A stretch of 36,881 bases of DNA, taken from positions 18,443 through 55,323 of the forward strand of contig PLLC01000093.1 in assembly GCA_003141195.1 (NCBI GenBank), given 5' to 3'. The position numbers and the translations under genes were made by a program. This stretch comes from Syntrophaceae bacterium. GTDB taxonomy: Bacteria > Desulfobacterota > Syntrophia > Syntrophales > UBA5619. The notes under the pieces were generated by a model, which did not search any database, was not told where the DNA came from, and saw only the letters and a program-made list of their open reading frames with translations. Shown here one piece after another: positions 12,919 to 32,705 of the stretch (positions are counted from its first letter, which is position 1; every line of letters begins with the position of its first letter).

Positions 12919-12928
12919 CGATCCCCCC

Positions 12929-14683: not shown

Positions 14684-14700
14684 CCTAATTAAGGCACTTG

Positions 14701-15258
14701 TCAGTCTTTCCGATATTTTTTTGCGCCTTCGACATAAAGATCGTTGCCCTTCGTGTCGTTGATCACAACCACCGGAAAATCCTCTACTTCCAGTCTATGG
14801 ATGGCTTCAGGCCCGAGGTCTTCATACGCAACCACTTGCGCCTTCTTGATGCTCTTTGCGAGCACCGCTCCGGCGCCGCCGGTGGCCCCAAAGTAAATCG
14901 CTTTATTTTTTTTCATCGCCTGGATGACTTCGGGCGCCCGATTCCCCTTGCCGATCATCCCTTTCATGCCGATCTCCATCAGCCTGGGGGCGTAGGCATC
15001 CATCCGGTAGCTCGTCGTCGGTCCCGCAGAGCCGATCGGCTTGCCGGGCCTGGCCGGCGCCGGTCCCACATAGTAGATGACCTGGCCGCGAACATCCATG
15101 GGAAGTTCTTTCCCCTGATTCAGAAGGTCGATCATGCGTTTGTGGGCCGCGTCTCTGCCCGTGTAAATGACGCCGCTGATCAGAACCTTGTCACCGATCT
15201 TCAATTGATCGACATCTTCCTCGGTCAAGGGGGTCTTCAGTCGAATTACGTTTGCCAT
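14701..15258 (-). CDS. Class I fumarate hydratase, beta (C-terminal) subunit
   Basis: Start MANVIRLKTPLTEEDVDQLKIGDKVLISGVIYTGRDAAHKRM; YYVGPAPARPGKPIGSAGPTTSYRMD. Confidence 0.94.
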   Translation of the reverse strand: MANVIRLKTPLTEEDVDQLKIGDKVLISGVIYTGRDAAHKRMIDLLNQGKELPMDVRGQVIYYVGPAPARPGKPIGSAGPTTSYRMDAYAPRLMEIGMKGMIGKGNRAPEVIQAMKKNKAIYFGATGGAGAVLAKSIKKAQVVAYEDLGPEAIHRLEVEDFPVVVINDTKGNDLYVEGAKKYRKD

Positions 15259-15274
15259 GCTATCCCTCCATCTT

Positions 15275-16114
15275 TTAGATCGTCGCTTCCTTGTGTCTGT
15301 TTGCATGACACTGCACGTTCACTGCAAGCGGCAGGCTGGCGATATGACAGGGTTCCACCTCAAAAAAGACGTCCAGCGCCGTCGTATTGCCGCCGTAACC
15401 CATGGGACCGATCCCGAGTTTGTTGATCCTCTCCAGGACCTCCCGTTCCATCTTGGCAATTTCCGGGTCGGGATTCCGCTGCCCCACTTTCCGCAACAGG
15501 GCCTTCTTGGCCAGAATGGCTGTCCTCTCGAATGTACCCCCGATGCCGACGCCTACAATCGTCGGAGGACAGGGGTTGGAACCGGCTTCTTTCATGCGGT
15601 TGACGATGAAATCCTGGACGCCTTCAGCGCCCGCCGAAGGCGTCAGCATGTGGACGCGGCTCATATTCTCCGCCCCCCCCCCCTTCGGAACAGCCATGAT
15701 TCTGATCTTGTCGCCGGGAACGATATCATAATGGATGATCGCCGGGGTATTGTCCCCGGTATTCTTTCGGGTAAAGGGATGGCAGGCCGATTTTCTCAAG
15801 TATCCCTCTTGGTACCCCTGCCGCACGCCCTCGTTAATGGCGTCCCTCAGATTCCCCCCGACCACATGAACATCCTGACCCATATCGACGAATACGACGG
15901 CAAGCCCCGTATCCTGGCAGATGGGGTACTCACCCTGCGATGCGATTGCGACGTTCTGCTTCAGTTCCTTGATCACTTCCCGCGCAACGGGGGACTCATC
16001 GCTCTGAATCCTCCGGTCGAATTCGTCAACAACATCCTGCCCCAATTTATAATTGGCGTCGATAAAGAGGTCCTTGACCGTCTTGACAATCTTGTCAACC
16101 TGGATCTCCCTCAT
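15275..16114 (-). CDS. Class I fumarate hydratase, alpha (N-terminal) subunit
   Basis: 279 aa; CQDTG, CPPTIVGVGIGGTFE, MGYGGNTTALDVFFE. Confidence 0.95.
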   Translation of the reverse strand: MREIQVDKIVKTVKDLFIDANYKLGQDVVDEFDRRIQSDESPVAREVIKELKQNVAIASQGEYPICQDTGLAVVFVDMGQDVHVVGGNLRDAINEGVRQGYQEGYLRKSACHPFTRKNTGDNTPAIIHYDIVPGDKIRIMAVPKGGGAENMSRVHMLTPSAGAEGVQDFIVNRMKEAGSNPCPPTIVGVGIGGTFERTAILAKKALLRKVGQRNPDPEIAKMEREVLERINKLGIGPMGYGGNTTALDVFFEVEPCHIASLPLAVNVQCHANRHKEATI

Positions 16115-16132
16115 GCTTGACCCCCTTTCTCT

Positions 16133-17590
16133 TTATTTCTTCACCTGTTCAATGGCCCGTTTCAGGGCGTTCTGGAGCATGCTGAGAGGCGGTTTCCGGA
16201 TGAACCCTTCCTCCATGAGGTGGTGGATGAGTTTGCGGGATTCCTTGATGTCATCCTCGGCCTGCTTGAAGGCCTCCTTGGCCGTCATCTTCACCCGGGC
16301 CACGCCGTCTTTAATGGCCTGCATGGCCACGTCGCGGGCCTCGGCGGGAAAGATCTCCCACTCATCCATCTTGGGCATGATGTTGTCCGGGTTGATGCCC
16401 CGCTTCTCTGCGGTCTTGGCCATGGAGTGGGCCGCGGCGATGGCCATGTTATCCGTGATCTTCGAGGCCTTGACGAGGAGGGCCCCCTTCAGGATCCCCG
16501 GGAAGCCGAGGGAGTTGTTCACCTGGTTGGGGAAGTCCCCGCGGCCCGTGGCGGCGATGTAGGCCCCCGCTTCCTTGGCGGCGTAGGGGTAGATCTCCGG
16601 AACGGGGTTCGCGCAGGCAAAGACGATGGACTTCTTCGCCATGGAACTCACCCAGGCGGGCTTGATCACGTCCGGTCCCGGAGTGGAGAGGGCGATCAGG
16701 ACGTCGGCGCCCTTCATGGCCGCGTCAATGGAATTGACCTTCTTCGGGTTCGTGGCCTTGCAGATCTCCCACTTCCGGTAGAACCGCTTGTCCGCCTCGA
16801 GGTCCTTGCGGCCCTTGTGGAGTCCCCCCTTGGAATCGCACACGATGATCTTTCCCGGGTCCGCCCCGGCCTGGAGGATCAGGCGGATGGTCGTCGCGTT
16901 CGCGGCCCCGGCGCCGAACATGGTGAGGCGGACGTTCTTCAGTTCCTTGCCCGCCACCTTGAGGGCGCTGAGAAGCCCCGCTAGGGTCACGGAACCGGTC
17001 CCCTGGGCGTCGTCGTGCCAGACGGGGATCTGGCAGGCATCGCGCAGGGTGTCGAGAACCTTGTAGCAGTTCGGCTGGGAGATGTCCTCCAGGTTCACGG
17101 CGCCGAAACTCGGCTCCAGCATCTTGACGAACTCGATGATCTTGTCGGGATCATGCTGGCCCTTGGCGTTGTAACTGTTGATGCACAGGGCGACGCCGTC
17201 CACGCCGCCCAGGTACTTCATGAGGAAGGCCTTGCCTTCCATGACGCCGAGCCCGCCGGACGGCGTCACGTCGCCGTCCCCGAGGACGCGGGTGGAATCG
17301 CTGACGATGGCCACCAGGTTGCCCCGGTTGGTTAGTTCAAATGAGGCTTCGTTGTGGTCCCGGATGCTTGTGGAGATCTTGGATACGCCGGGGGTGTACC
17401 AAACGTTAAACCAGTTGAACCCGTAAACGCCGGCCTTGGGGATGGTCGTCATCTTGCCGCCATAGAATTTGTGGGCATCGTAGGCGAGCTCCTTCAGGAA
17501 CAGGGTCTGCCCCTTGGCGATCTGCGCTTCCGTAAAATTCTTCGGGAAGGCCTTCCGTAAATCGGTCAGTGCAAAGTCAATCTTACTCAT
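16133..17590 (-). CDS. NAD(P)-dependent malic enzyme
   Basis: 485 aa; VYTPGVS-like motif (VWYTPGVSKIS), VNLEDISQPNCYKVLDTLRDACQIPVWHDDAQGTGSVTLAG, FACANPVPEI. Confidence 0.95.
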   Translation of the reverse strand: MSKIDFALTDLRKAFPKNFTEAQIAKGQTLFLKELAYDAHKFYGGKMTTIPKAGVYGFNWFNVWYTPGVSKISTSIRDHNEASFELTNRGNLVAIVSDSTRVLGDGDVTPSGGLGVMEGKAFLMKYLGGVDGVALCINSYNAKGQHDPDKIIEFVKMLEPSFGAVNLEDISQPNCYKVLDTLRDACQIPVWHDDAQGTGSVTLAGLLSALKVAGKELKNVRLTMFGAGAANATTIRLILQAGADPGKIIVCDSKGGLHKGRKDLEADKRFYRKWEICKATNPKKVNSIDAAMKGADVLIALSTPGPDVIKPAWVSSMAKKSIVFACANPVPEIYPYAAKEAGAYIAATGRGDFPNQVNNSLGFPGILKGALLVKASKITDNMAIAAAHSMAKTAEKRGINPDNIMPKMDEWEIFPAEARDVAMQAIKDGVARVKMTAKEAFKQAEDDIKESRKLIHHLMEEGFIRKPPLSMLQNALKRAIEQVKK

Positions 17591-18028
17591 ACAATCCTTA
17601 CTCCTTTCTCTGTGTTTTTTCCTATTTAGGATTCGACGAACCTTCCGATGCGTCGTTGCTCTTCAACCGGGTTTCCTGTTGCAGTGTGCGGAGATGTAAA
17701 ACGAAGGGACGGAGAATGAAGTGCGCCGCCGGACGGGGCCTGTTTTCGAAGCCGTCCATATCGACAAACTGCGTATAATAACAATTCGGCATAGATGCAA
17801 GGGCTGTCTTGGATGGTCTAACCCAAAAGGAAAACCCGCCGCCTTGTGCAAAAAATGTATGTTTTATTATCCTAATCTATTCCATAAAGGCAAGAAAAAA
17901 GTGGAGAAAAAGAACGAGCCCCTGCACGACTCATCCGGCGCCGGTCAGAAATGCCTTGCAGCACGGGCTTTTACGGTGGTCCGCCGGGTCGTCCTGTCTT
18001 TTTCAACAACCTTTGGGAGGCGCGCGCC

Positions 18029-19312
18029 TCAGGATGGGAGGGCGCCCACATCGCGCAGGATTTTCTCGAGCGCCCTGCGCCCTTCGGGATCAAGCTGTTT
18101 CTGCGGCGGGAGGGGAGAACCCACGGGAAATCCCTGCATCTCGAGCCCCGCCTTGACGCAAGCGGCCAGGGAATACCGCTGGAAGGCCACGTTGAGGGGC
18201 CATTGCTTTTTCTGAAGGGCTGCCGCTTCTGCCCACCGGCCCTGCCGGGCTGTTTCGTACAGGGCAATGCTCTGCTCGGGAATGACGCACGCGGGACCGG
18301 ACATCCAGCCGACGCCGCCGATGAGAAACACGAACAGGGGAACGGAAGAGGTATCGCTGAAGAGTTTGATCCGGTCGCCGAGGGTCGTGACGATGGACAT
18401 GAGTTTGCCTACGTTCCCCGACGCATCCTTAAGGTATTGGATATTCGGTTCCCCGGCGAGCTCCCGGAGCGCCTCGACGGAAAAATCCCAGGTCTGGAAT
18501 TTCGGATTCGTGTACAGGGTGACGGGGCAAGACACAGCGCGGGCCACGGCCCGGAAATGGGCAACGACCTGCTGGTCGTTGAGGGGAAAGTAGCCCGGCA
18601 TGACGGCCAGGATCCCGTCCACGCCCAGTTTCTCCGTCTCTGCAGCCTCCCGGACGGCGCCGGGGGTTGACAGATTGCAGACACCCGCCACAACGGGAAC
18701 CCGTCCTGCCGCAGCCCGGACCGTGACCTCCACGGTCCGCCGCTTCGTCTCCCAGTCCAGATAGGGGGCCTCGCCGGTGCTGCCCAGGGGCGTCAGGCCG
18801 TGCACCCCCTTGCGGATCAGGTGTTCCACGAGATCGGCGAGGGGCTGTTCCTTCAGCTTGCCCGCCTCGGTGAGGGGTGTAACCAGATAGGGGAAAATGC
18901 CGGTGAATGCCTTGGCGCCCATGTGATCCTCCTTGTTGCTTCCTGCCTGCCCGTTGCCTCTGTCTGTTTTAATGGCAGAGCATTTTGCGCTCAGAATCGA
19001 CATAAGATGGCTCACGGCGACATCCCGCTGCGTCTTACGGCGCATGGGCCGCTCAAAGTCCACCAGATATCGGACACCTCTCCCCTCACGTTTTTTGCTG
19101 ATGTAGCCACCTTGGTCCAGATCGCTGATGATCAACCGGACGCTACGCTCCGTGATACCAACTTCCTGAGAAATCTCCCGGGCGGTGATCCGAGGATGTT
19201 TGGCCAGCAGCGATAGAACCGCCGCGTGGTTTGTGATAAAGGTCCACCGCTTTTCGCACTCACCGTAACGACTGATTTTTTTAGGGTCAACATTGGTCAT
19301 GGGACAAGCCAT
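18029..19312 (-). CDS. HTH (winged-helix) region in frame with a DapA/dihydrodipicolinate synthase-family protein; probably two cistrons, with DapA starting at 18922
   Basis: N-terminal ITAREISQEVGITERSVRLIISDLDQGGYI helix-turn-helix; C-terminal TPLGSTGEAPYL and YLKDASGN (Schiff-base Lys). AAGGAGGATCAC directly precedes an in-frame ATG at 18922. Confidence 0.85.
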   Translation of the reverse strand: MACPMTNVDPKKISRYGECEKRWTFITNHAAVLSLLAKHPRITAREISQEVGITERSVRLIISDLDQGGYISKKREGRGVRYLVDFERPMRRKTQRDVAVSHLMSILSAKCSAIKTDRGNGQAGSNKEDHMGAKAFTGIFPYLVTPLTEAGKLKEQPLADLVEHLIRKGVHGLTPLGSTGEAPYLDWETKRRTVEVTVRAAAGRVPVVAGVCNLSTPGAVREAAETEKLGVDGILAVMPGYFPLNDQQVVAHFRAVARAVSCPVTLYTNPKFQTWDFSVEALRELAGEPNIQYLKDASGNVGKLMSIVTTLGDRIKLFSDTSSVPLFVFLIGGVGWMSGPACVIPEQSIALYETARQGRWAEAAALQKKQWPLNVAFQRYSLAACVKAGLEMQGFPVGSPLPPQKQLDPEGRRALEKILRDVGALPS

Positions 19313-19463
19313 CTTTTACTTGACAAGCAACCTATTTAAGGGATAACTCATGAACAACATTTCATGAATTATAGTTCTTATGTTTTATGCATAGCAGAAC
19401 ATCAGTTATTCCGCAATCAATTTATGAGTCAATCCTCATAACTATGCGGAGCATGAGGAACCG

Positions 19464-19796
19464 ATGAGATTCTTTCGGTCAACATGGTTACAGAGAATCT
19501 TGCTTTTCGTATTGCTGGTCTTGCTGAGCGCAGGTCCCTGTGGTTTTATTGAACAACAGGGGGATCGAAAAGACGAATTCGTCATCCATGCCACGCAGTT
19601 CCTACCCGAACTCAGTTCCATCCTCCAGCAGCCTCAGATCAATTATGGTTTTGATGTCGTCCACGTTTCGGTAGTAACGATTTTCAATAAGATCACTTCA
19701 GACGATTACATTCCGGGAACATCTTGTGATCCTCTTTCCGCCGATCTTCTAACCTATCTTTGTCGGGGTCCCCCTCACCTCATTACCATTCTGTAA
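19464..19796 (+). CDS. Hypothetical protein with N-terminal hydrophobic segment
   Basis: 110 aa; RSTWLQRILLFVLLVLLSAGPCG signal-like N-terminus; SD-like GAGGAA upstream; no homology recognised. Confidence 0.3.
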   Translation: MRFFRSTWLQRILLFVLLVLLSAGPCGFIEQQGDRKDEFVIHATQFLPELSSILQQPQINYGFDVVHVSVVTIFNKITSDDYIPGTSCDPLSADLLTYLCRGPPHLITIL

Positions 19797-19963
19797 ATAT
19801 CCAGTGGACAAAACGGGAGTAACCCTCCCGGAAATTTCCTTTCCAACCGGATCTCTCGGGCAGGTGGCTCGCAGGTTGTAGTCTGGGATCGGGATACTTA
19901 GGAGGGAAACCCCCTTTTTATTGATACATGTCAACAAATAATAATTCGAGAAAGGAGTTAATC

Positions 19964-20326
19964 ATGGATAAACTTTTCAAATTAATAGGCATTTTATTCG
20001 TGCTTTCTCTATTGGCCTTGCCACTGACTGGGTGCGACAACCCCCCTTGGGAGGGTGGGATGATTCTAAATCTGAAGGTAGACACGCCTCGGGATGGCAC
20101 CACTGTTACTACGTCCACGGTAACGGTAAGCGGCCGCGTGAGTGGAACCCAAAGTGCAGGGGCAAGCGTGAGAATTAATGACGCAGACGTGCCTGTTAAG
20201 GACGGCAAGTTCTCCACCAATGTCACGCTGACCGAGGGCAAAAATGTCATTAATATTGTCGCTAAAGTTGATCAGGCCAAGCCAAATGAGACAGTGACTG
20301 TCACCTATGTCCCGGCTAAACAGTAG
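19964..20326 (+). CDS. Small lipoprotein with Ig-like/beta-sandwich repeat-type domain
   Basis: Start MDKLFKLIGILFVLSLLALPLTGCDNP with lipobox LPLTGC; DTPRDGTTVTTSTVTVSGRVSG...VRINDADVPVKDGKFSTNVTLTEGKNVINIVAKV is typical of secreted beta-sandwich domains; SD AAAGGAG. Confidence 0.75.
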   Translation: MDKLFKLIGILFVLSLLALPLTGCDNPPWEGGMILNLKVDTPRDGTTVTTSTVTVSGRVSGTQSAGASVRINDADVPVKDGKFSTNVTLTEGKNVINIVAKVDQAKPNETVTVTYVPAKQ

Positions 20327-20398
20327 ACTGGCACGTTTGACCATGTACATACGATCAAGTGATTATCGCTGAAGAACAATATCCGGGAGGATAAATCA

Positions 20399-20716
20399 AT
20401 GAACTGGATGTTTTGGAAAAGTGAGGGTCAGACCAAGAGGCTTCCGGGTCCAAAAGAACCCCCCCAACAAGTTGTCAACTATCTGGTGACAAATGCAAAA
20501 ATGTCTCCCGATCTGGTCTGGCGTCTGAAAGCAGTGACTATTCCCCGGTCAGATGAGAAAGATGTGATCGACGTCCGGGTGTACGACAGTAACGTTACGG
20601 AGCGCAATGGCGTCAAGGTGATAAACTATCATTCCTTAGATGATCATTCTGCCCTCGTAATTTTCGATGGCTGGTACAACAAAGTAACCCATGCTGTCGA
20701 TAAAAAGAAATTATAA
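20399..20716 (+). CDS. Small protein of unknown function (paralog of 34101..34433)
   Basis: 105 aa; shares FWK, PD.VW.LK.V, RV.D, VKV.N..SLD.H and a Trp/Gly-rich end with the ORF at 34101..34433; SD GGGAGG upstream. Confidence 0.75.
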   Translation: MNWMFWKSEGQTKRLPGPKEPPQQVVNYLVTNAKMSPDLVWRLKAVTIPRSDEKDVIDVRVYDSNVTERNGVKVINYHSLDDHSALVIFDGWYNKVTHAVDKKKL

Positions 20717-20819
20717 CAGCATCCAGAAACAACTCGAAGGACAGGAGAATATACCTGCGCTCCTGTCTTGCCTGGATGCTTCATCCTAACCAAGATTTTG
20801 GGGGCGAGTAAGGTGCAAC

Positions 20820-21068
20820 ATGCCGGAAGCAAAGGTCGTTTTGCATTTGATAAGGTCGGAGGATCTTAATCACCACGGGGCTTTGTTCGCCGGACAGATG
20901 GCGAAATGGTTAGTGGAGGCCGGTCTTATGGTAGTGCAAGATCTTTTGTGTGAAATTCATAGAGCATCAAAAAAGGTAGAAAAAAGTCTGAACCCCCAGA
21001 AAAAAATAGTTTCAGCGCAGGGTGATGTATTGATGAAGAAGGTTGACCTGATCTCTGGTCGATCTTGA
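20820..21068 (+). pseudogene. Acyl-CoA thioesterase (hotdog) N-terminal remnant
   Basis: RSEDLNHHGALFAGQMAKWLVEAGLMVV resembles the conserved N-terminal hotdog segment; similarity is lost after ~45 aa and the ORF ends at 82 aa. Confidence 0.5.
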
Positions 21069-21200
21069 CGCCCAGGGGTCCGCTTCCCTGTCGCTGGGGC
21101 TGACAAGGGGCGATCTTACGCCAGGGACCGCGGAAGTCATTCTGGAAAGACATCCGATCCCGGGCGCGCAGAAATAAAGGGGTATGGCAGGGAGGGAATT

Positions 21201-21314
21201 ATGGGATCGAAAACGATGTTATGGGTTGGCGTAGTTATCGTTATAGCGATTTTATTTTTAATCTCATCCGGGTTAATTCCCCGCAGCTTGCTGCGAAAGG
21301 CCTATTCCTTATAG
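21201..21314 (+). CDS. 37-aa putative single-TM microprotein
   Basis: MGSKTMLWVGVVIVIAILFLISSGLIPRSLLRKAYSL with GGGAGG 6 nt upstream; its end overlaps a REP-like repeat. Confidence 0.3.
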   Translation: MGSKTMLWVGVVIVIAILFLISSGLIPRSLLRKAYSL

Positions 21315-21356
21315 ATGCATTTGATACCCCGTAGCTTGCTGCGGGGTAGTTCATTC
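21274..21356. repeat. Two tandem REP-like palindromic units (CCCCGYAGCTTGCTGCG)
   Basis: Unit 1 AATTCCCCGCAGCTTGCTGCGAAAGG; unit 2 GATACCCCGTAGCTTGCTGCGGGGTAGTTCATTC with a 10-bp stem (21326..21347). Confidence 0.7.
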
Positions 21357-21783
21357 TTGTTTCGGAATTAAACGGAGCCGGAGATCCTGTTCCCACGGTT
21401 TGTCAATAATCATCCATTCCGCCACAGAATGAAGAGGCTACTTTTTCAAATTTTTTGAAATTTTTGGGGCATGGGTTTTTATACAGAGGAATAGTAAAAG
21501 GGAAGGCCGGGGGGGTCCTGGGTAAAAAAATCTCTCTCCGGGGAGGCGTGAGTTATAGACGCAGTAACCATAAGAGAGGCTCATACCCCCCTGCATCGCG
21601 TTTCCGGGTCATATGGGCGGTGCTGGTAAAGTAATTCTTTTTTGTGGCAGCTTTCAACCCGAACTGCGGAGGTGTGATCGAAGAAAAAAGGACATGCGCC
21701 GGACCTTGAGTCCACCTACCTATACTGTTCATCGGTGGATATACATCTAAAGTGAGGATTACGGATTGAACTTGATGGAGACA

Positions 21784-22737
21784 CTACCGTGTGGCTTTAA
21801 AGGACCTGCTCTGAACAGTAGCTTGGAGAGAATTCAAAATCTCCTCACATTGGGCGGCTACTTTCCGTTTCTGGCCCAGGGAGAGTTGCAGTGATTTTAT
21901 ATTTGTGTTCATCCTAGATAATCTGACCACTTCCTTATGCACCTCCATAAATTTCGAAAAGGCTAACAAAGAGTCACTAAAGATGATCCTGCCATGCTGG
22001 TTGGTAAGACGGGAAAGGTTGCTTAATGCATTGCGGACCTTTTTTTCATTCATGCCCATGAGGTTTTCCAGTTCGTCCATTTTCTTATCTTGAGCCTCAT
22101 TAATGTGCGGGGCTTCGAGGCTGTAAATCATAAATGCAGCGGTAGCAGCCTGATAGGCTAACTTTGCCATCTGCGCCCGTTCACCGTCAGATATAGGGAT
22201 ATCCATCAACTCAGATAAGAGTCGCTCGAAGTTTGCTATGGCTTGGGCGGCTGCGGTATAGGATAAATTTGCTGCTTTGATATTGGTATTCTCTACCGCT
22301 AGGGATAACAGTTCCTTGTCGATTACCCGGAAATTATTCCAATTATCACTGAATTCTTTCAGCAAATTCATCTCTTTGTCTATTTCTGCCGCATCTATCA
22401 GGCCTTTCAGTTCATGGTAATCTCGCTCGACGGCATCAGAACTCTTGCGCGATTGCTCGGCTAAGTCCTTCGATTCTTCGTCGGTAATGGCCATTACAGC
22501 GCCCTTTTCCAGGTCAGTCGATTTTAAAAGATTTATTCTCATCCGGGAGACAATTTCCACGACCTTTGTCGTGTTGCTAATGACGGTTTCATACTTGGCA
22601 TTCTGCCCTAGGAATCCTGAGAAGTACAAAACCAGCACTGACAATAGTAATGTAATGATCAGAACCAGGACAATCCGCACGCCGATTCCCGGAGTCTTTC
22701 TCCATGTTTTTAAGTCACTTCGATTTATTTCATCCAT
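21784..22737 (-). CDS. Membrane-anchored helical sensor-like protein (four-helix-bundle/MCP-type sensory region without recognisable output domain)
   Basis: Start chosen at MDEINRSDLKTWRKTPGIGVRIVLVLIITLLLSVLVLYFSGFLG (one TM) followed by ~260 aa of amphipathic helices; no HAMP, MA, HisKA or GGDEF motif seen. Confidence 0.6.
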   Translation of the reverse strand: MDEINRSDLKTWRKTPGIGVRIVLVLIITLLLSVLVLYFSGFLGQNAKYETVISNTTKVVEIVSRMRINLLKSTDLEKGAVMAITDEESKDLAEQSRKSSDAVERDYHELKGLIDAAEIDKEMNLLKEFSDNWNNFRVIDKELLSLAVENTNIKAANLSYTAAAQAIANFERLLSELMDIPISDGERAQMAKLAYQAATAAFMIYSLEAPHINEAQDKKMDELENLMGMNEKKVRNALSNLSRLTNQHGRIIFSDSLLAFSKFMEVHKEVVRLSRMNTNIKSLQLSLGQKRKVAAQCEEILNSLQATVQSRSFKATR

Positions 22738-22904
22738 GTACAAGCATCCCGCCTGACTGATGTTATATCTTTTTGCTGGTGTCGATATTGATCGATAAGG
22801 CATTGCTTTTTCACGATGGGAGTATATGAAGATTGGTCCTGTGTGTCAATTGAATCCTGGGTAGCAAGATTTAAACTTGACAAACCAGGAGACACGAAAT
22901 ATTC

Positions 22905-23040
22905 TCCACAAATGCCGAATCCTGGTATCTTAAGGAGCGGGGGAACCAGACATTTGGGGCGTATCGCCGCATGGCGTAGGGCAACCTCTTCGGTCCGAGC
23001 CCGTCAGCTAACCTCGCAGGCATCGATGAGGAGAACCTTC
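22905..23040 (+). ncRNA. c-di-AMP riboswitch (ydaO-yuaA type)
   Basis: GCCGAATCCT...AAGGAGCGGGGGAACCA...TTTGGGGCGTATC...GTAGGG...GGTCCGAGCCCGTCAGCTAACCTCGCAGGC matches the conserved blocks of the ydaO-yuaA family in order, directly upstream of kup. Confidence 0.9.
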
Positions 23041-23092
23041 CGGATTGATCCAGGAGTTCATCCTACAGTACGATGATTTCGGAGGTTCTTTT

Positions 23093-25030
23093 GTGACATC
23101 CTCGCCCAACCTTAGTAGTGGACCAACTAACTCCGTTCCCGATAAGGAATTTGATCAAAAAAGGCTGAACAGAAAGGTCCTCGCTCTTTCTATCGGCGCC
23201 CTAGGTGTGGTCTATGGAGATTTGGGGACGAGTCCCCTTTATACAATCAGGGAATGCTTCTACGGGACACACGCCATCGCGCCCACAATTGCCGACATAT
23301 TGGGCGCACTCTCGCTTATCTTCTGGACGTTGACCGCTGTCATAAGTATTAAATATGTCGTATTTATCCTCCGGGCAGACAACCGGGGCGAGGGCGGGAT
23401 ATTTGCTCTTCTTGGCCTGATCCCTACATCCGGGAGTAGCATGTCACCCCGAGTCCGCTCGATAGCAATGCTTGCCGGGGTTGTCGGGGCAGGGCTTCTC
23501 TACGGAGACGGCATCATTACTCCTGCCATCACGGTTCTTTCTGCCATTGAAGGGCTTGAGATTGCCACAAAAGCCGCAGCACCCGCGGTGCTGCCCCTTA
23601 CCTGTGTGGTGCTCCTTTTGCTTTTTCTTTTACAACATCAAGGAACCGCGCATATCGGCAAGCTATTCGGCCCGATTATGATGATTTGGTTTATGTCCAT
23701 TGCCGCCCTCGGGCTCGGCCAGATTATTCTTGAGCCACGGGTTTTGTACGCCATCAATCCGCTCTATGCCCTCGATTTCTTCGCGCATAACGGGCTTCAC
23801 GGGATAGTCGTTCTCGGTTCAGTCGTTCTCTGTATTACCGGCGGTGAGGCGCTCTACGCGGATCTTGGGCATTTCGGACGGCATGCTATAAGGTTCGCCT
23901 GGTTTTGGTTCGTCTATCCTGCTTTGCTCCTCAACTACTTCGGTCAGGGCGCTCTGTTGCTTGGACATCCTGAGATGAATATCAACCCCTTCTATGGAAC
24001 AGTGCCGAGGTTTCTCCTTTATCCCATGGTCGGTCTCACAACCATAGCCTCCGTAATAGCCTCTCAGGCCTTGATCTCCGGCGTCTTCTCACTGACGCAG
24101 CAGGCCATTCAGCTTGGCTTCTGTCCCCGTATACACATCGTCCATACATCACAAGATATAAGAGGCCAGATATATATCCCTTCCGTAAACTACGCCCTGA
24201 TGCTCGCCTGCATAGGCGTTGTCATCGGATTCGGCGAATCGAGTGGACTTGCCGGCGCTTACGGAATTGCCGTTACAGGGACCATGACCATCACTTCCTG
24301 CCTCTATTTTCTTGTGCTCACCCGCAACTGGAACTGGTCTCTCTGGAAGGCAGTACCGCTCGTAGGTATCTTCCTATTCTTTGACATTGCCTACTTCGGC
24401 GCAAATCTCCTCAAGGTTGCTACCGGAGGATGGTTTACTCTTCTTGTTGCGGCTCTCATTACAGTTGCCATGACCACCTGGAGGAGGGGGCGGGAAGAAC
24501 TCAAACGCAAACTGCTCGGCGCCAGGTTACCACTGGATCTCTTCATGTCCGATGTGGCAAAGCAAGGCCTGCCGAGAGTATCAGGCACAGCGGTATTCAT
24601 GACCGTGTCTCCTGAGGGAACGCCTCCGACTTTGCTCCACCATGTGAAACATAACCACATGTTGCATGAAAAAGTCGTGCTCCTTTCCATCCAGTCCGCC
24701 GATTTTCCAACTGTCCCAGCTGACGAAAGAGTGCAGGTGGGCGACCTGGGCGATGGCTTCTATCGGGTTGTGGCGCTCTACGGCTTTATGCAGCGGCCTG
24801 ATGTGCCGCAGATCATGAAAATCGCCGCCCGCCATGGACTTATGGCCGAACCTTTAACCACGACCTATTATCTAGGCAGAGAGACGCTTCTTACCATCGG
24901 CGACTCCAAGATGATGCGCTGGCGCAAGGCCCTTTTTGCCTTAATGTCGAGAAATGCAGGAAATCCAACCGCTTATTTCAAACTTCCGGCCAACCGGGTG
25001 GTGGAGTTCGGCACTCAGATAGAGTTGTAG
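23093..25030 (+). CDS. kup: Kup-family potassium transporter
   Basis: LSIGALGVVYGDLGTSPLYTIRECFYG, NRGEGGIFALLGLI and GDGIITPAITVLSAIEGLE are Kup hallmarks. GTG start at 23093 preceded by GGAGG; the upstream TTG start at 23045 overlaps the riboswitch region. Confidence 0.95.
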   Translation: MTSSPNLSSGPTNSVPDKEFDQKRLNRKVLALSIGALGVVYGDLGTSPLYTIRECFYGTHAIAPTIADILGALSLIFWTLTAVISIKYVVFILRADNRGEGGIFALLGLIPTSGSSMSPRVRSIAMLAGVVGAGLLYGDGIITPAITVLSAIEGLEIATKAAAPAVLPLTCVVLLLLFLLQHQGTAHIGKLFGPIMMIWFMSIAALGLGQIILEPRVLYAINPLYALDFFAHNGLHGIVVLGSVVLCITGGEALYADLGHFGRHAIRFAWFWFVYPALLLNYFGQGALLLGHPEMNINPFYGTVPRFLLYPMVGLTTIASVIASQALISGVFSLTQQAIQLGFCPRIHIVHTSQDIRGQIYIPSVNYALMLACIGVVIGFGESSGLAGAYGIAVTGTMTITSCLYFLVLTRNWNWSLWKAVPLVGIFLFFDIAYFGANLLKVATGGWFTLLVAALITVAMTTWRRGREELKRKLLGARLPLDLFMSDVAKQGLPRVSGTAVFMTVSPEGTPPTLLHHVKHNHMLHEKVVLLSIQSADFPTVPADERVQVGDLGDGFYRVVALYGFMQRPDVPQIMKIAARHGLMAEPLTTTYYLGRETLLTIGDSKMMRWRKALFALMSRNAGNPTAYFKLPANRVVEFGTQIEL

Positions 25031-25103
25031 TATCGATGTCATATCCTCAAAACACTCCTCGTCCATTGAGTCGAGTAGACCGGTTTTCTCCCAGTATTAC
25101 ACT

Positions 25104-25215
25104 TGACGACCTCGTAAAAAGTCGGAAAATGACCCTTTTTGAAAATTCGCACCTAATAATTACAGCAAGTTACAGAGCTACATTTGGCAAATTTTGACTT
25201 TTTACGAGCTCGTCA
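25104..25215. mobile_element. MITE-like element, 112 bp, 20-bp terminal inverted repeats
   Basis: TGACGACCTCGTAAAAAGTC (25104-25123) versus GACTTTTTACGAGCTCGTCA (25196-25215): 19/20 inverted match; flanked by CACT on both sides (possible 4-bp TSD). Confidence 0.65.
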
Positions 25216-25394
25216 CACTTGACTTCAGTCAATATTGAATACCGTTTGAAATAAAGTATGTCTGAGAAAATTGCAGAATGCTGCCTTACAGGAAGTTGTC
25301 CGTATCAATCCTGCCTCATCAGCCATCCACTCGGGCCTTCTGAAAAATCTTGCTGGGCTACAATTCCTTCCTGCCTAACCCCTGTCAAAAGTCA

Positions 25395-25416
25395 GCTGAT
25401 CCTTTATCCGATCAGC
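25395..25416 (-). terminator. Possible hairpin terminator at the end of the HU-SelW transcript
   Basis: Minus strand GCTGATC-GGATAAAG-GATCAGC (7-bp stem) overlapping the stop codon, then TGACTTTTG; T-run weak. Confidence 0.35.
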
Positions 25417-25628
25417 CTGGAGATTTCTCCATCACTGGGGAATCGCTGACCTTTAGTATTCAGCTTAGAGTAGATCAACTTGCCGTTACATTTTACATCA
25501 AAGATACCGCCACCGCCTTCGATCAATTTGATAATTGAGTCAGGATAATTTGCCTTCAATTCTGCCTCCACACGGGAAGCTTGAGGCAGATAGTTTCAAA
25601 CGCCACAATATTCAATAAAAATGTTCAT
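25404..25628 (-). CDS. SelW/SelT/SelH (Rdx) family selenoprotein, in-frame UGA decoded as Sec (CxxU)
   Basis: Manual translation: MNIFIEYCGVUNYLPQASRVEAELKANYPDSIIKLIEGGGGIFDVKCNGKLIYSKLNTKGQRFPSDGEISRLIG*; UGA at 25596-25598 falls at the second redox residue of the CxxC/CxxU motif; SD GGAGG 5 nt before ATG. Not in the ORF track because of the in-frame TGA. Confidence 0.88.
25561..25590 (-). promoter_or_regulatory. Candidate bacterial SECIS hairpin
   Basis: Minus strand TCTGCCTC-AAGCTTCCCGTGTG-GAGGCAGA, perfect 8-bp stem starting 5 nt after the UGA codon. Confidence 0.6.
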
Positions 25629-25637
25629 AACGCCTCC

Positions 25638-25913
25638 TCAACCATTCACTCTATCCTTCAATTCCCTCCCCACCTTGAAAAACGGCAACCTCTTGGAGTC
25701 CACCTGAGTCTTGGCACCGGTTTTTGGATTCCTTCCCGCATAGCTGCCATATTCTCTCACGGTGAAGCTCCCGAATCCCCTGATTTCAATCCTACCGCCC
25801 TTCTTGAGAGTATCGGTGAAACCGTCAAAGACCATGTTGACGATCTCAGATGCATTATTTTCAGTCAGGTTTTCTTTGGTGGATAAAGCGTCGATCAGAT
25901 CGGACTTGTTCAT
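25638..25913 (-). CDS. HU/IHF family DNA-binding protein
   Basis: 91 aa; MNKSDLIDALSTKENLTENNASEIVNMVFDGFTDTLKKGGRIEIRGFGSFTVREYGSYAGRNPKTGAKTQVDSKRLPFFKVGRELKDRVNG. Confidence 0.95.
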   Translation of the reverse strand: MNKSDLIDALSTKENLTENNASEIVNMVFDGFTDTLKKGGRIEIRGFGSFTVREYGSYAGRNPKTGAKTQVDSKRLPFFKVGRELKDRVNG

Positions 25914-26132
25914 GTGTGTGGCTCCTCCGTGAAATTTGAATAGAAAGACGTCTCTGGAAGATGCAAGGGTCTATTGCCGTTGGAATCAATATACCGGGAT
26001 TTAAATGGAAATCAATAGCATTATTGAAAATCTTTAGGAAGAGCTTCTAATAACAGTGCCCCGTCCCGTTTTCGTCATAATCACTCCCTAAATCCATTAT
26101 ATCCCCCCCGCCTCTACATATATTACTTTATT

Positions 26133-26177
26133 GAAATGACTGTCATTTTAAATGTCATGTGATTCATCAGTCATTTC
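26133..26177. repeat. Nested inverted repeat, possible operator
   Basis: GAAATGACTG (26133-26142) / CAGTCATTTC (26168-26177), perfect 10-bp arms; also inner palindrome AAATGAC-T-GTCATTT (26134-26148). Confidence 0.5.
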
Positions 26178-26254
26178 CACATATCCCCATCATCCCCTAA
26201 TCCACCAAGCACCCAATCCCCTTCATAACCCTTCAACAAACGGAGGAACCATGC

Positions 26255-26761
26255 ATGGAAACCGCCGACCAAGAAATCAGGAGAGAAAAAGTATTAATCC
26301 CGAGTGAGATGAGCAGAACAGAAATAATGCAAAAGTACGGTGTCTCGCCATCATGCGCATATGCTGCCATGAAGAAAGGCTGGCTAATCAAAAATTACAG
26401 CCGAAACCAGATCATCATCGACCGTGACCATTTCAACCCAGCGGTTTGCTACTCCATCGCCAAGCAAGTTTTCTGGAAAAAGTTTCGTTGGAATCCAGTC
26501 GCCATCTCCATCAAGGAAGACCTGATCCAGGAAGCGGTTTCACTCATGTTCATGCAAAGCGGAAAGATCAAGGCAGGCGCCAATGAGAAATACAACGATC
26601 GATATGGGTTCTGGTGGTGCGCCTACAATGCGATGCTGGCATATCTCAAGAAATGGATCAACCAGACCGAGCACGATGTGGAGCTCCAAGACGAACTCCA
26701 TCCGATGATGTTCAATGGAAATCGAAGATGGTCACCGGAATACGGATGGGGCTATTGTTGA
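26255..26761 (+). CDS. Hypothetical protein, possible N-terminal HTH
   Basis: 168 aa; MSRTEIMQKYGVSPSCAYAAMKKGW resembles an HTH; AT-richer than neighbours and next to IS remnants. Confidence 0.55.
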   Translation: METADQEIRREKVLIPSEMSRTEIMQKYGVSPSCAYAAMKKGWLIKNYSRNQIIIDRDHFNPAVCYSIAKQVFWKKFRWNPVAISIKEDLIQEAVSLMFMQSGKIKAGANEKYNDRYGFWWCAYNAMLAYLKKWINQTEHDVELQDELHPMMFNGNRRWSPEYGWGYC

Positions 26762-26925
26762 GATGGGTAACGGGGGGGATTAACCAGAGGGCCAGAGTGC
26801 ATGATCAATATCGGGGATAAGACGGAAGGGGATTATCTTTGCTTATTGAACGTGCCCTGGCCCTCTGTCTTGGGATGGGGATGGGGAGGGGGAGATGATG
26901 AGGGGATTTCTGTGTGGGCTATTTT

Positions 26926-27123
26926 TTTGAACCGAACAGAGATCTTCTACACCCTGAGAGAAGCACAGGTGCTGATTGAAAAATGGCGATTGGAATACAA
27001 CACGTTCAGGCCACACAGCTCCTTGAATTACCGCCCTCCGGCACCAGAGGCGTATCTGCATTGAGAAATAAAAATTGGCAGAATTCTAACTTTAAATGTG
27101 GTACATGTTCTGGGGGCAGGTCA
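26926..27123 (+). mobile_element. IS3-family transposase C-terminal remnant and putative right end
   Basis: FLNRTEIFYTLREAQVLIEKWRLEYNTFRPHSSLNYRPPAPEAYLH is the typical C-terminus of IS3-family OrfB (stop ends 27064); TGGGGGCAGGTCA at 27111-27123 resembles an IS3-type terminal sequence. Confidence 0.8.
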
Positions 27124-27680
27124 ATTACTTAATCAAACTGTGCGTGTCGTTCCTCATTACGGCAACCGGTGGTTTCATCGCCAAACAACTGGGACTGGAG
27201 CTGCCGAAAACTGTTACACCTGTGGCCTGGGCCTTGATCGTCGGCGGTGTGGTAATTCTGTTTATCGAGCGTTACGTCGGCCATCGTCAGATCAGAGAAC
27301 AAGACTCATGGAAAGTCGCGGTTGTGGTCGGTCTGGGGCAGATACTCGCTGCCGTGTTTCCGGGCACTTCACGTTCTGCCGCCACCATCTTTGCAGCCAT
27401 GTTGGCCGGCTTGAGTTCACGTGCAGCGGCTACCGAGTTTGCGTTTTTGGTCGGCATCCCCACCATGTTTGCCGCCACGAGCTATGAACTGCTGAAAGTC
27501 ATTAAGAATGGCACGGCCGTGAATGAAGACTGGACCGCGCTCGGCATCGGTTTTATGGTGTCCGCCGCGGCGGCTTTCATTGCGGTCAAGTGGCTGTTGC
27601 GCTACATCCAGACTCACCAGTTCACCGTGTTTGCCTGGTATCGCATCGTGTTTGGTGCGGCGTTATTCTTCCTGGTGTGA
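27124..27680 (+). pseudogene. uppP: 5'-truncated undecaprenyl-diphosphatase (UppP/BacA)
   Basis: ALIVGGVVILFIER and VFPGTSRSAATIFAAMLAGLSSRAAATEFAFLVGIPTM are UppP signatures; the N-terminal third including the first catalytic motif region is missing and the fragment abuts the IS3 end. Confidence 0.8.
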
Positions 27681-27684
27681 TCTT

Positions 27685-30600
27685 ATGGATACCAAAAAGA
27701 TGTCCCCAAGCCGATACCGATTCCCATGGTTTCTGATCTTTGCCGTTGTGATCGGCGTGACAGCCCTGTTTTTCATCGGCCGTTACCGAATTGCCGTCGA
27801 TACGGACATCCTTGCCTCCCTCCCCCAGGGAGATCCCATCATCGCCGATGCCCGTAACGTAATCACGCATCACCCCATCCAGGAACGCATCGTCATCGAC
27901 ATCGGCCATCGGGGCAACAATCCGGAGCGGCTGATTGCGGAGGCGGTTTCACTGGAAAAAAGACTGCAGGACAGCGGCCTCTTCAAAACCGTGGGTTTAA
28001 GCCGGGAGCAACAGCTTTTTCCCGCTTTGATTGCCCATGTGACGGAGAATTTCTCCGTTCTCTTTAACGAAAGTGATCTTCAGGAGAAGATCGGCCCTCT
28101 CATTGTGCCGGAGAAAATCCGGGAGGCCCTGATGAAGGCCCGGGCAGAATTGACAGGACTCGAAGGAATCGGCCAGGCAGACATCATTGCACGGGATCCT
28201 CTGAGTTTCCGTAGCATCATCCTCGAACGGATGGCCCCCCTCGCGCCTTCCGGGAAGGTCGTCTTCTTCCAGGGGCAACTTCTGTCTGCGAACCGGAAGC
28301 ACCTGCTGATCATCGCTGAGCCTGTCACCTCGGGATATGACACAGCCTTCTCCCGAAAAGTCACCGCCCTGATCGCCGATGCAGGCCGCCAACTGGACAA
28401 GAAGTTTGCAGGCTCGGATACCTTAACCCTGACGCCAGTCGGGGCCTACCGCGCCGCCCTGGATAACGAGACAGCGGCCAAGACGGGCACCCACCGGGCC
28501 GTCTTTATCTCCACCATCGCCATCGCCTTTCTGTTGCTGCTGGGATTTCCCCGGCCCTGGATCGGTCTCCTGGCACTCCTCCCAGCCTTCGCGGGGACTA
28601 TGGTCGCCGTCTTCGTCTATTCCCTCTTTCAGAAATCCATCTCTGTTATGGCCATCGGTTTTGGCGGCGCCATCATTTCCTTCACCGTGGATTACGGGAT
28701 TGCCTACCTCCTTTTCCTGGACAGGCCTTATGAAACTCACGGCCTGGAGGCCACGAAGGAAGTCTGGTCCCTGGGGCTCCTGGCCATGCTGACGACAGCG
28801 GTCAGTTTCGCTTTCCTTTTCGTTGCCGGTTTTCCTGCCCTTTCTCAACTTGGCGCCTTTGCCGCCCTCGGCGTCGTTTTTACCTATATCTTTGTCCACG
28901 CCGTGTACCCGTTCCTGTTCCCGAAGGTGCCGCCAGCCAAGCGGGACGGTTTCCTACCGCTTCAAGGCATCGCCGATACGATGACCAAAGGGGGAATGAC
29001 GGCGGCATTTGCCGCGCTCCTTTTCGGCGCCGTGATGCTCTTTTTCGCGAAGCCCGATTTTCACGTAGATCTCCAGGCCATGAACAGCGTGAGCCGGGAG
29101 ACCCTGGCGGCGGAGAAGCTGATCCGTGGCGTGTGGGGAGATGTTTTCAGCCGGATCTTCCTTGCTGTGGAAGGGAAAACCCTGCCGGAACTTCATGCCC
29201 GGGAGGATCGCCTTGCCGGACTGCTGGAGGAGGAGTCGAAGAAGGGAACCGTGACCTCCGCCTTTGTCCCTTCGATGATCTTTCCCGGAGAGGAACGGGC
29301 GAAGGGGAATTTCGCCGCCTGGCAGGCCTTCTGGACGGCGGAGCGCATTGCGGAACTTCGGCGGTCCATGGCCCCGCTGTCGCAGGAGTTGGGCTTTTCA
29401 CCCCAGGCCTTTGACGGCTTCTTCGCCGCCCTGAAAGCGAAGACGTTCCGCGTCCCCGCTATTCCCCCGCCATTCTTTTCTCTTCTGAGCATCGTTAAGA
29501 AGCAGGACGGAAAAGGATGGACGCAATTCGCATCCGTTCAACCTGGACCAGCCTACAATGGGGAAATCTTTTACGAAAAAATGGCGGCAAGCGACTTGGC
29601 CAAGGTCTTTGATCCCGCCCTCTTCGGCGATCGCCTGGGCGGCGTCATCCTGAACGGATTCATCGATGTGGCCATGATCGTCGGCATCATGACCTTTCTC
29701 GTTTCCCTACTATATCTCTTCCACTTGCGTCTGACCCTGATTGCCCTCCTGCCTACGGCCTTTTCCCTCATCTGCACCATCGGGACGCTCCGCCTGTGCG
29801 GGCAGACCCTCGGCATCCCCGTGATTATCGTTTCCGCCGTTGTCATCGGCATGGGAACGGATTATGCCCTCTACCTCGTCCGGGCATACCAGCGTTACAT
29901 GAATGAAGATCACCCCTCCGTAAGGTTGATCCGCCTGTCTATTTTCCTGTCTTTTGCCACGACCTTCATTGGTTTCGGCGTCCTCGCCCTGTCCGGGCAC
30001 ACGCTCCTTAGGAGCGCTGGGCTGGCCCTGGCCCTGGGCATCGGCTATTCCTACCTGGGAACTGTCACCCTGGTACCGCCGCTTTTAAGACATCTTCTTG
30101 TTCCAGTGCCTTTCGGTTATGAACCCCTAACAGCGGGATCGAAAGAGCATGCCCGGCGGACCCGCCGCCACTACCGGAATATGGAAGGCTATCCCCGTCT
30201 GTTCTCCCGCTTAAAGCTGATGCTGGATCCAATGTTTCCCAGACTGGCCGGTTTCGTGCGGGACCCCCGAGTGATCCTTGATGTTGGAACGGGTTTCGGC
30301 ATCCCCGCGGTCTGGCTTCTGGAACTCTTTCCCTGCGCCTGTGTTTACGGCATCGAACCGGACAAGAAGCGCGTCCTGTTTGCCTCTATGGCTATCGGTG
30401 AAAGGGGCGCGGTGACCGTCGGCTCGGCGCCGCATATCCCGGAAGCGCCGCAGAAGGCGGACACCATCACCATGCTCGATATGCTCCATTATCTGAGCGA
30501 TAGGGACCTAGCACTGACCCTGTCAAGGCTTCGTGAGGCAGCCGCCTCGGAATGCAGGCTCATCATCAGGGCGACCATCCCCACAATGACGCAATCTCCT

Positions 30601-30771
30601 TGGACGAAGCGCATCGAACAGCTTCGCCTAAGGATCTTCACGATCCCATACTATTACCGGCAGATTTCGGATATCGAGAAAACCCTGCTGAATGCGGGAT
30701 TCCGGGTAACGAAGATCGAGCCCTCGGCCCCGGGACGGGAGGAACAATGGATCATAGCCGAGGCTGCGTGA
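27685..30771 (+). CDS. RND/MMPL-family exporter fused to C-terminal SAM-dependent methyltransferase domain
   Basis: Start MDTKKMSPSRYRFPWFLIF at 27685; two RND-type TM blocks (VMAIGFGGAIISFTVDYGIAYLLFLDRP; VVIGMGTDYALYLVRAYQRY) followed by VILDVGTGFGIPAVWLLELFPCACVYGIEPD (SAM motif I). Confidence 0.88.
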   Translation: MDTKKMSPSRYRFPWFLIFAVVIGVTALFFIGRYRIAVDTDILASLPQGDPIIADARNVITHHPIQERIVIDIGHRGNNPERLIAEAVSLEKRLQDSGLFKTVGLSREQQLFPALIAHVTENFSVLFNESDLQEKIGPLIVPEKIREALMKARAELTGLEGIGQADIIARDPLSFRSIILERMAPLAPSGKVVFFQGQLLSANRKHLLIIAEPVTSGYDTAFSRKVTALIADAGRQLDKKFAGSDTLTLTPVGAYRAALDNETAAKTGTHRAVFISTIAIAFLLLLGFPRPWIGLLALLPAFAGTMVAVFVYSLFQKSISVMAIGFGGAIISFTVDYGIAYLLFLDRPYETHGLEATKEVWSLGLLAMLTTAVSFAFLFVAGFPALSQLGAFAALGVVFTYIFVHAVYPFLFPKVPPAKRDGFLPLQGIADTMTKGGMTAAFAALLFGAVMLFFAKPDFHVDLQAMNSVSRETLAAEKLIRGVWGDVFSRIFLAVEGKTLPELHAREDRLAGLLEEESKKGTVTSAFVPSMIFPGEERAKGNFAAWQAFWTAERIAELRRSMAPLSQELGFSPQAFDGFFAALKAKTFRVPAIPPPFFSLLSIVKKQDGKGWTQFASVQPGPAYNGEIFYEKMAASDLAKVFDPALFGDRLGGVILNGFIDVAMIVGIMTFLVSLLYLFHLRLTLIALLPTAFSLICTIGTLRLCGQTLGIPVIIVSAVVIGMGTDYALYLVRAYQRYMNEDHPSVRLIRLSIFLSFATTFIGFGVLALSGHTLLRSAGLALALGIGYSYLGTVTLVPPLLRHLLVPVPFGYEPLTAGSKEHARRTRRHYRNMEGYPRLFSRLKLMLDPMFPRLAGFVRDPRVILDVGTGFGIPAVWLLELFPCACVYGIEPDKKRVLFASMAIGERGAVTVGSAPHIPEAPQKADTITMLDMLHYLSDRDLALTLSRLREAAASECRLIIRATIPTMTQSPWTKRIEQLRLRIFTIPYYYRQISDIEKTLLNAGFRVTKIEPSAPGREEQWIIAEAA

Positions 30772-31003
30772 GAGATCGAACGGGTCAAGGCCAAGTCGAT
30801 GTAGTACCGGGAAGAAGTGGGAGTGATCTCCCGATCGAAATGTTGAAGGAACAGGCGCGGGAAAATATCCCTTGACAGGGCTGTCAAAATACAATAATTA
30901 ACCGTCCGTTTCTAATCAATGAACGGAGTAAGATGAAAAGTGCACACAGCCTTCAGTAGATTCGACATTACCCGCATCCCCTTCTATACCTATATGTATT
31001 AAT

Positions 31004-31037
31004 GCCTGCTGTCTGTCCAGAGGACGGGCAAGCAGGC
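31004..31037 (+). other. Strong hairpin upstream of dctP2
   Basis: GCCTGCTGTCTGTCC-AGA-GGACGGGCAAGCAGGC: ~15 bp stem with two G-U pairs and one bulge; no T-run. Confidence 0.45.
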
Positions 31038-31149
31038 CTTCCCCCACAATAACCACCGTCATCCCCACTATTTAAATGTTTGTAATGGAAGCGGTCTTAT
31101 CGACTGAGAAAGCATTGTCTCAGCGAGTAAAAAAATAAGGAGGATAACC

Positions 31150-32172
31150 ATGAGAAAGTTTTGGAGGTCTCTGTTTTTCACCGCTTGCATGTCCTGCATC
31201 GGGTTTACTGTTTTCACCCCTTCGGCATCCGCCCAAACCCCGATCAAGCTGAACTATTCGGTCTTTTTCCCTGCCTCCCATATTCACAGCGTCCTGGCCG
31301 TCGAATGGGGAAAGGAGCTGGAAAAGAGAACCAATGGGCGGGTCAAGGTGGATGTTTTACCGGGCGGCACCCTGACGCCTGCCGACAAATGTTATGACGG
31401 CGTTGAGAAGGGGATCTCCGATCTGGGGATGTCGGTCTTCGCCTATACGAGGGGGAAGTTTCCTCTGACGGAGGTGATCGACCTGCCTTTAGGCATCAGG
31501 AGCGGGTTGGCGGCAACTCGGTTGATCAACGACTACTACCGGACATTCAAACCGAAGGAGTTGGACGGCGTGAAGGTGATGTTTCTCCATGCCCACGGCC
31601 CCGGCCTTCTCCACAGCAAAACGGCCGTCAATAAACTTGAAGACCTCAAAGGGATGAAGGTCCGTTGTACCGGTCTGGCCACAAAAATCGTCACCGCCCT
31701 CGGGGGAACCCCGGTCGCCATGCCCATGGGGGAGACCTATGACGCCCTGAGCAGGGGAGTCGTTGACGCCTCCATGGCGCCGCAGGAATCGCTGAATACC
31801 TGGAATTGGGGAGAGGTGGTGAAGTTTACGACGGAGGATTTCGGCGCCTCGTATTCCACGGGGATGTTCGTCGTCATGAACAAGGAGAGGTGGAACTCCC
31901 TGCCGCCCGATATCCAGAAGACAATCGAGAAACTGAATGAAGAATGGATTGAAAAGTCGGGGAAGGGATGGGATGACATCGATAAGGCCGGAAGAGAAGC
32001 CACGCTCAAATTGGGCAATAAGATCATCTCTCTTTCCAAAGAGGAAAATGAGCGGTGGGCAAAGACGGTCCGCCCGCTTCTGGATGATTACGTGAATAAT
32101 ATGAAATCAAAGGGGCTGCCTGGAGACCAGGTGTTGAAGTTTGCCATGGATCGTTTGAAAAGCCTCCGGTAG
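31150..32172 (+). CDS. dctP: TRAP transporter substrate-binding protein (DctP family)
   Basis: 340 aa with signal peptide; PIKLNYSVFFPASHIHSVLAVEWGKELEKRTNGRVKVDVLPGGTL. Confidence 0.94.
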   Translation: MRKFWRSLFFTACMSCIGFTVFTPSASAQTPIKLNYSVFFPASHIHSVLAVEWGKELEKRTNGRVKVDVLPGGTLTPADKCYDGVEKGISDLGMSVFAYTRGKFPLTEVIDLPLGIRSGLAATRLINDYYRTFKPKELDGVKVMFLHAHGPGLLHSKTAVNKLEDLKGMKVRCTGLATKIVTALGGTPVAMPMGETYDALSRGVVDASMAPQESLNTWNWGEVVKFTTEDFGASYSTGMFVVMNKERWNSLPPDIQKTIEKLNEEWIEKSGKGWDDIDKAGREATLKLGNKIISLSKEENERWAKTVRPLLDDYVNNMKSKGLPGDQVLKFAMDRLKSLR

Positions 32173-32219
32173 GAGATCAACAGATGGGGTGTCGGCATGG
32201 GCGCCAAAAGGAGAAATCC

Positions 32220-32705
32220 ATGAACGGATTTGAAAAAACAGTGACGGAGATAAGCAGATTCCTCAATGGCATCGCCGGGATCAGTTTGATCTTTCTCATG
32301 TCGCTGACGATCGTCGATGTGATTTTGCGGGGCTTCAACAAACCCCTCGTGGGAACCTATGAACTGGTCGCCTTGGCGGGGGCGGTGGTGATCGGATTTT
32401 CGATGCCGCAGACCGCGACATTGAGGGGCCATATTTATGTCGATTTCCTTATCGCCAAATTCTCCCGCAAGGTGAGAAACCTCTTCAATATCGCCACACG
32501 ATTGCTGGTCCTCCTCCTTCTGCTCTTCATCGGATGGAACCTGTTCAAGTATGGCTGGGATCTCCAGAGATCGGGTGAGGTTTCCCTCACTCTCCAGATG
32601 CCTTTCTACCCCGTGGCGTACGGGGTCGGGATCTGCTGTTTTGTCCAGTGTCTGGTCATGGTCTGCGACATCATCAAGATCCATGGAGGGACGTTCGATG
32701 AGTGA
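32220..32705 (+). CDS. dctQ: TRAP transporter small permease (DctQ)
   Basis: MNGFEKTVTEISRFLNGIAGISLIFLMSLTIVDVILRGFNKPLVGTYELVAL. Confidence 0.93.
   Translation: MNGFEKTVTEISRFLNGIAGISLIFLMSLTIVDVILRGFNKPLVGTYELVALAGAVVIGFSMPQTATLRGHIYVDFLIAKFSRKVRNLFNIATRLLVLLLLLFIGWNLFKYGWDLQRSGEVSLTLQMPFYPVAYGVGICCFVQCLVMVCDIIKIHGGTFDE

Follow-up and report, generated by a model that had tools for sequence, protein, structure and literature searches.

The leader of kup in the analysed DNA of a Syntrophaceae bacterium (36,881 nt of contig PLLC01000093.1, assembly GCA_003141195.1; hereafter the window) is almost certainly a member of the c-di-AMP riboswitch class RF00379. We consider it likely that this riboswitch represses kup when c-di-AMP, and hence cellular K+, is high, with translation as the most likely level of control. 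The leader is a further member of an already known class, and it is the proposed conserved translational platform that deserves attention. Through the riboswitch, c-di-AMP would control K+ import by Kup in a Gram-negative anaerobe related to Syntrophus, a lineage in which c-di-AMP physiology is little studied, judging by the literature found. If this reading is true, a phylogenetically conserved translational platform exists in a class chiefly known for terminating transcription, adding a conserved candidate to the one case of translational control claimed in the literature found (PMC9960051). Riboswitch and target gene also lie together in a variable genomic block.

Identity and extent of the aptamer

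The sequence-only reading of this stretch had proposed a c-di-AMP riboswitch because conserved blocks appeared in the right order upstream of a potassium transporter gene. All the blocks that it quoted were found in that order, and a cmscan search of the window against all 4227 Rfam families returned RF00379 (c-di-AMP/ydaO-yuaA) as the sole gathering-level match, with 105.7 bits (E 2.3e-24), far over the threshold of 38. The alignment runs over model positions 1-134 of 134, without truncation and with no non-standard pair marked. The conserved helices in the window consist of standard pairs throughout (P1 with four, the adjoining helix with six and the inner helix with three), and the predicted loop-tail pseudoknot CCUCUUCG/CGAUGAGG forms 7 of 8 pairs here and 7-8 pairs in 25 of 25 loci. 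A search of the whole 3.27-Mb genome found this copy as the single RF00379 match.

With the match ending at 23037 and the kup GTG following at 23093, the aptamer precedes a K+ transport gene, one of the gene types expected behind this class along with osmolyte and cell-wall genes. The range first proposed for the riboswitch ended at 23092, the final base ahead of this likely start codon, and thus takes in both aptamer and expression platform; the aptamer proper ends at about 23022 (P1) or at 23031 (pseudoknot tail). That the downstream gene is kup, as had been read from the letters, is borne out by Pfam matches to K_trans (617.6 bits) and K_trans_C (172.7 bits) and by NCBIfam TIGR00794 (kup) above its cut-off. 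It is the genome's single PF02705 match. From the predicted promoter (Table 1), transcription would begin around 22911-22913, on the aptamer's 5' border and a few bases from P1. Promoter-like sites of such quality are expected by chance at 0.7 per 600-base region; TTGACA is also found upstream of the aptamer in most relatives. Divergently upstream of the kup leader, the minus strand carries an ORF (21784-22803) whose product has a 4HB_MCP_1 sensory domain.

Table 1. Features of the kup leader and gene, in window coordinates
Feature	Position	Strand	Basis or remark
Sigma-70-like promoter TTGACA-17-TATTCT	22877-22905	+	10 of 12 consensus matches
c-di-AMP (ydaO/yuaA) aptamer	22903-23037	+	RF00379 full-length match
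P1, 5' strand UGCC	22913-22916	+	Covariance-model alignment
Helix next to P1, 5' strand GCGGGG	22937-22942	+	Alignment, folding
Loop CCUCUUCG, 5' side of predicted pseudoknot	22985-22992	+	Matches the place of CUCCUUCG in crystallised ydaO RNA (PMC5393176)
Helix next to P1, 3' strand CCUCGC	23012-23017	+	Alignment, folding
P1, 3' strand GGCA	23019-23022	+	Covariance-model alignment
Tail CGAUGAGG	23024-23031	+	Pseudoknot 3' side (7 of 8 pairs), overlaps 5' arm of early hairpin; proposed switching strand
Early (anti-sequestor) hairpin	23027-23067	+	Complete before SD is transcribed
Anti-SD strand AGAACCU-u-CCGGA	23032-23044	+	Comparison of leaders
Shine-Dalgarno (SD) GGAGG	23081-23085	+	7 nt before GTG
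kup, 645-aa K+ uptake protein (KUP family)	23093-25030	+	Pfam, NCBIfam

Expression platform

In the leaders of 24 loci, bases that lie between P1 and the start codon and are transcribed ahead of the SD can fold into an early hairpin, and most of these leaders can also form an alternative stem in which part of the early hairpin's 5' arm covers the SD. These two leader folds are mutually exclusive. The early hairpin keeps 91.5% of its pairs in 15 relatives, versus 34-63% for slid controls, and includes a compensatory change of G21-C29 to A-U in 4 of 15 sequences. The SD sequestor keeps 91.8% of its pairs in 15 aligned sequences, versus 26-62% when slid, and its covariation in the same 15 sequences was no greater than in shuffles. 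We rely on such conservation because, for the window alone, chance complementarity to the SD is possible; the SD-opening cost of the window by itself is unexceptional, 15 of 200 shuffles being as high.

A terminator scan of 22700-23300 found no intrinsic terminator between aptamer and gene. This, together with the conserved anti-SD/SD pair beside the start codon, the layout expected of translation control, speaks against the same riboswitch acting with the same OFF logic on transcription, through Rho or through pausing of RNA polymerase. Such a mechanism has precedents: the prototype ydaO and kdp switches use termination (PMC6488665; PMC9960051), a Streptomyces case lacking a terminator still alters transcript level (cited in PMC9960051), and a ribosome-shielded leader could be prone to Rho. 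We regard it as unlikely, and control is probably translational rather than transcriptional.

Whether or not the aptamer fold was forced, predicted SD accessibility was low (means 0.18 and 0.16) and changed in no consistent direction. When the pseudoknot tail was blocked, the mean SD-opening cost over the 24 loci went from 7.4 to 8.2 kcal/mol in one register and was 7.4 in the other; in the window, the cost of 8.0 kcal/mol rose to 10.4 in one register and fell to 6.9 in the other. Static folding thus does not discriminate between the states, and switching would therefore have to be co-transcriptional. Minimum-energy folding of the whole leader was discarded as a test, as it did not recover the aptamer and its z of -0.88 was not exceptional. 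Because folding energies do not prove a switch, the direction and level of control are drawn from knowledge of the class and from conservation.

Proposed mechanism

Since the leader folds are exclusive and the tail is complementary to the loop as in the ydaO RNA, we infer the following order of events. With the ligand present, the aptamer would close and its loop CCUCUUCG would pair with the tail CGAUGAGG. The pseudoknot would thereby take the 5' arm of the early hairpin and free the anti-SD strand, which would then pair with the SD and turn Kup translation off. With the ligand absent, the tail would remain free, the early hairpin would form ahead of SD transcription, and the ribosome could load. 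In this scheme, the pseudoknot tail has about an even chance of being the switching strand. Somewhat more tentatively still, we suggest for the Syntrophales and other Desulfobacterota relatives that the tail acts in this way, freeing the anti-SD and shutting off kup translation, and that the conserved platform has been carried between genomes together with kup.

Regardless of the strand involved, repression of kup by c-di-AMP is very probable, judging by the class, by the place of the aptamer ahead of kup and by conservation of the pair. The reverse logic, an ON switch in which release of the tail by the bound aptamer lets the early hairpin form and uncovers the SD, finds some footing in the folding results: with P1 and its neighbouring helix blocked, the GAGGAG tail pairs with the middle of the aptamer in many relatives while the SD is still covered, and the unconstrained minimum-energy fold of the window has the aptamer strand AACCUC over the SD. 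However, nested folding cannot represent a pseudoknot, which occupies the equivalent tail in the ligand-bound crystal (PMC5393176), and an ON switch would raise K+ uptake at high c-di-AMP, opposite to the characterised K+ importer cases (PMC10284832; PMC6488665). We therefore hold an ON switch to be very improbable and retain the OFF logic.

Comparison with known c-di-AMP switches

Riboswitches of the RF00379 class repress the kdp K+ importer in Bacillus (PMC6488665) as well as kimA and ktrAB (PMC10284832). The OFF logic proposed here would match this repression of Bacillus K+ importers, and also the OFF case of Corynebacterium nlpC. The ydaO RNA was crystallised with c-di-AMP and has a stable pseudoknot (PMC5393176). 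In the printed ydaO sequence, CUCCUUCG is complementary to CGAAGGAG, as are loop and tail in the window; we infer that this pairing is the pseudoknot of the crystal, an assignment made here and not by PMC5393176. Bacillus subtilis ydaO/kimA has the same RF00379 aptamer, and a KUP-family K+ importer lies downstream in both systems. The B. subtilis transporter is KimA and its switch works by intrinsic termination, whereas the gene here is an E. coli-type Kup, preceded by an SD-covering stem and no terminator. Bacillus thuringiensis kdpFABC (PMC6488665) resembles the present case in that c-di-AMP represses K+ uptake through RF00379, but it combines Kdp with intrinsic termination; here the importer is Kup, and kdpA-linked copies occur in relatives.

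The Corynebacterium glutamicum nlpC switch, like the one proposed here, is reported to be most likely translational (PMC9960051). Its authors propose that the ligand relaxes an early stem and frees an SD-blocking CUCC, which is the same logic as ours. However, nlpC is a cell-wall peptidase gene and not a K+ importer gene such as kup, and, unlike in nlpC, the anti-SD/SD pair and the early hairpin are conserved here across many genomes, with the shared tail being the pseudoknot strand.

Conservation of the aptamer upstream of potassium transporters

The link between aptamer and kup seen in the window also holds in related genomes. Among 156 genomes of the order, we sampled 23 Kup loci with at least 63% identity, the window's own excluded, and the aptamer lies directly upstream in 20 of them; the other three (L064, L075 and L080) have no gathering-level RF00379 match. 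Six of the 8 named loci found with Kup have RF00379 upstream of kup, including those of the MAGs Syntrophus sp. PtaB.Bin001 and PtaU1.Bin005. Kup proteins of the window's own family are 36-49% identical to that of the window, and no RF00379 was found at those of their loci that were scanned, some of whose flanks are cut by contig ends. Under stricter filters, 31 of 149 genomes across the order had RF00379, and within the family it was confined to the genome of the window. The window aptamer has the highest score of all those found in the order.

By inspection, RF00379 also precedes kdpA at six loci (L021, L022, L024 and L026-L028), two of which were confirmed by Pfam, and at a further locus (L023) it precedes a transporter for which KimA is the closest relative of solved structure (E 6e-32). 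The leaders of these kdpA- and KimA-linked copies differ from that of the kup group. As the aptamer occurs in the order before kup, kdpA and a KimA-like gene, it is associated with K+ uptake in general, and from these sequence matches several K+ importers of the order appear to share a c-di-AMP aptamer.

Genomic block around riboswitch and kup

In the congener G119, a match to window positions 11259-18936 (88-92% identity) is followed by 186 bases and then by a match to 35464-35981. Because these flanks nearly abut, window positions 18971-35463 (about 16.5 kb), which include the riboswitch and kup, are absent there. The block has a G+C content of 0.45-0.57, versus 0.59-0.62 on either side. Loss in G119, instead of gain here, would leave the same arrangement; since relatives of the riboswitch-kup pair occur in other families, acquisition by transfer explains these sequences more simply. 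In one genome of another family (G060), the DNA similarity in the compared stretch extends from 22906 to 25024, which is exactly aptamer plus kup. Mis-binning of the contig was rejected, as two congeners encode a malic enzyme with 92% and 89% identity to the neighbouring one here, and the flanking DNA stays collinear over about 7.7 kb (88-92% identity). A tRNA-linked insertion was also rejected, as the window contains no tRNA; nor was any integrase noticed.

The block also holds an MMPL-like protein, bacA and a DctPQM set. The bacA/uppP ORF (27096-27680, 194 aa) matches its family only from profile position 82 onward, and a frame without the N-terminal third may reflect truncation, a frameshift or an upstream frame. 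The ORF at 27523-30771 appears to encode an MMPL/RND-like membrane protein of 1082 aa with, by eye, an apparent C-terminal methyltransferase domain; its orthologues are 50-56% identical in other families of the order and about 46% in its own. At the other end, a minus-strand ORF (18029-19312) combines a winged-helix DNA-binding part with a DHDPS-family enzyme. The two parts meet near the limit of the variable block (18936-18971), so the joined ORF may be a chance fusion.

Predicted synthesis and breakdown of c-di-AMP

The sequence-only reading had noted that the window encodes no diadenylate cyclase, which agrees with the genes identified there, and had looked to the rest of the genome for a c-di-AMP synthase. 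Both checks that it had set out as able to overturn its proposal, the covariance-model score and the search for such a synthase gene, came out in favour of it. In 108 contigs totalling 3.27 Mb and 96.3% complete, the genome encodes one DAC-domain protein, a predicted diadenylate cyclase of CdaA type with 487 aa, an N-terminal membrane domain (CdaA_N) and a DAC domain scoring 121.6 bits. Its gene, the sole one of this kind, is located outside the window (L002:745-2208, minus strand). The C-terminal part of the protein resembles a relative's YbbR/CdaR protein (E 6e-10), and Pfam YbbR matches the orthologue of a congener. The best sequence match in the PDB is a diadenylate cyclase, and the DGA motif is retained; the second motif is RHT, versus RHR in characterised enzymes. 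RHT with an intact DGA was also found in both family orthologues that were translated (L088 and L090), so the motif looks like a lineage trait rather than decay. A relative (G043, L087) has an additional, canonical RHR CdaA adjoining a separate CdaR-like gene.

A cyclase inactivated by this motif, or a newly arrived island, would leave the aptamer decayed or orphaned and no longer responding. The sole cyclase does carry RHT instead of RHR, and the riboswitch and kup do lie within a block missing from a congener. On the other hand, the aptamer has the top score in the order with no broken pair marked, DAC genes are present in 18 of the 21 genomes of the family, and the two translated relatives keep both motifs intact. 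We consider loss of response even less probable than an ON switch, and a functional OFF switch remains our preferred reading.

For breakdown, a DHH-DHHA1 protein of 352 aa is a possible c-di-AMP phosphodiesterase candidate by its likeness to NrnA, with 93.6 bits against the NrnA model, well under the cut-off of 350. A domain search of the genome found no PgpH-type 7TM-HD domain. The genome has three TrkA_C matches, and these proteins are possible protein receptors. One TrkA_C match, L093 (G000:C26:1206-1403), is located in an open frame with one in-frame TAG.
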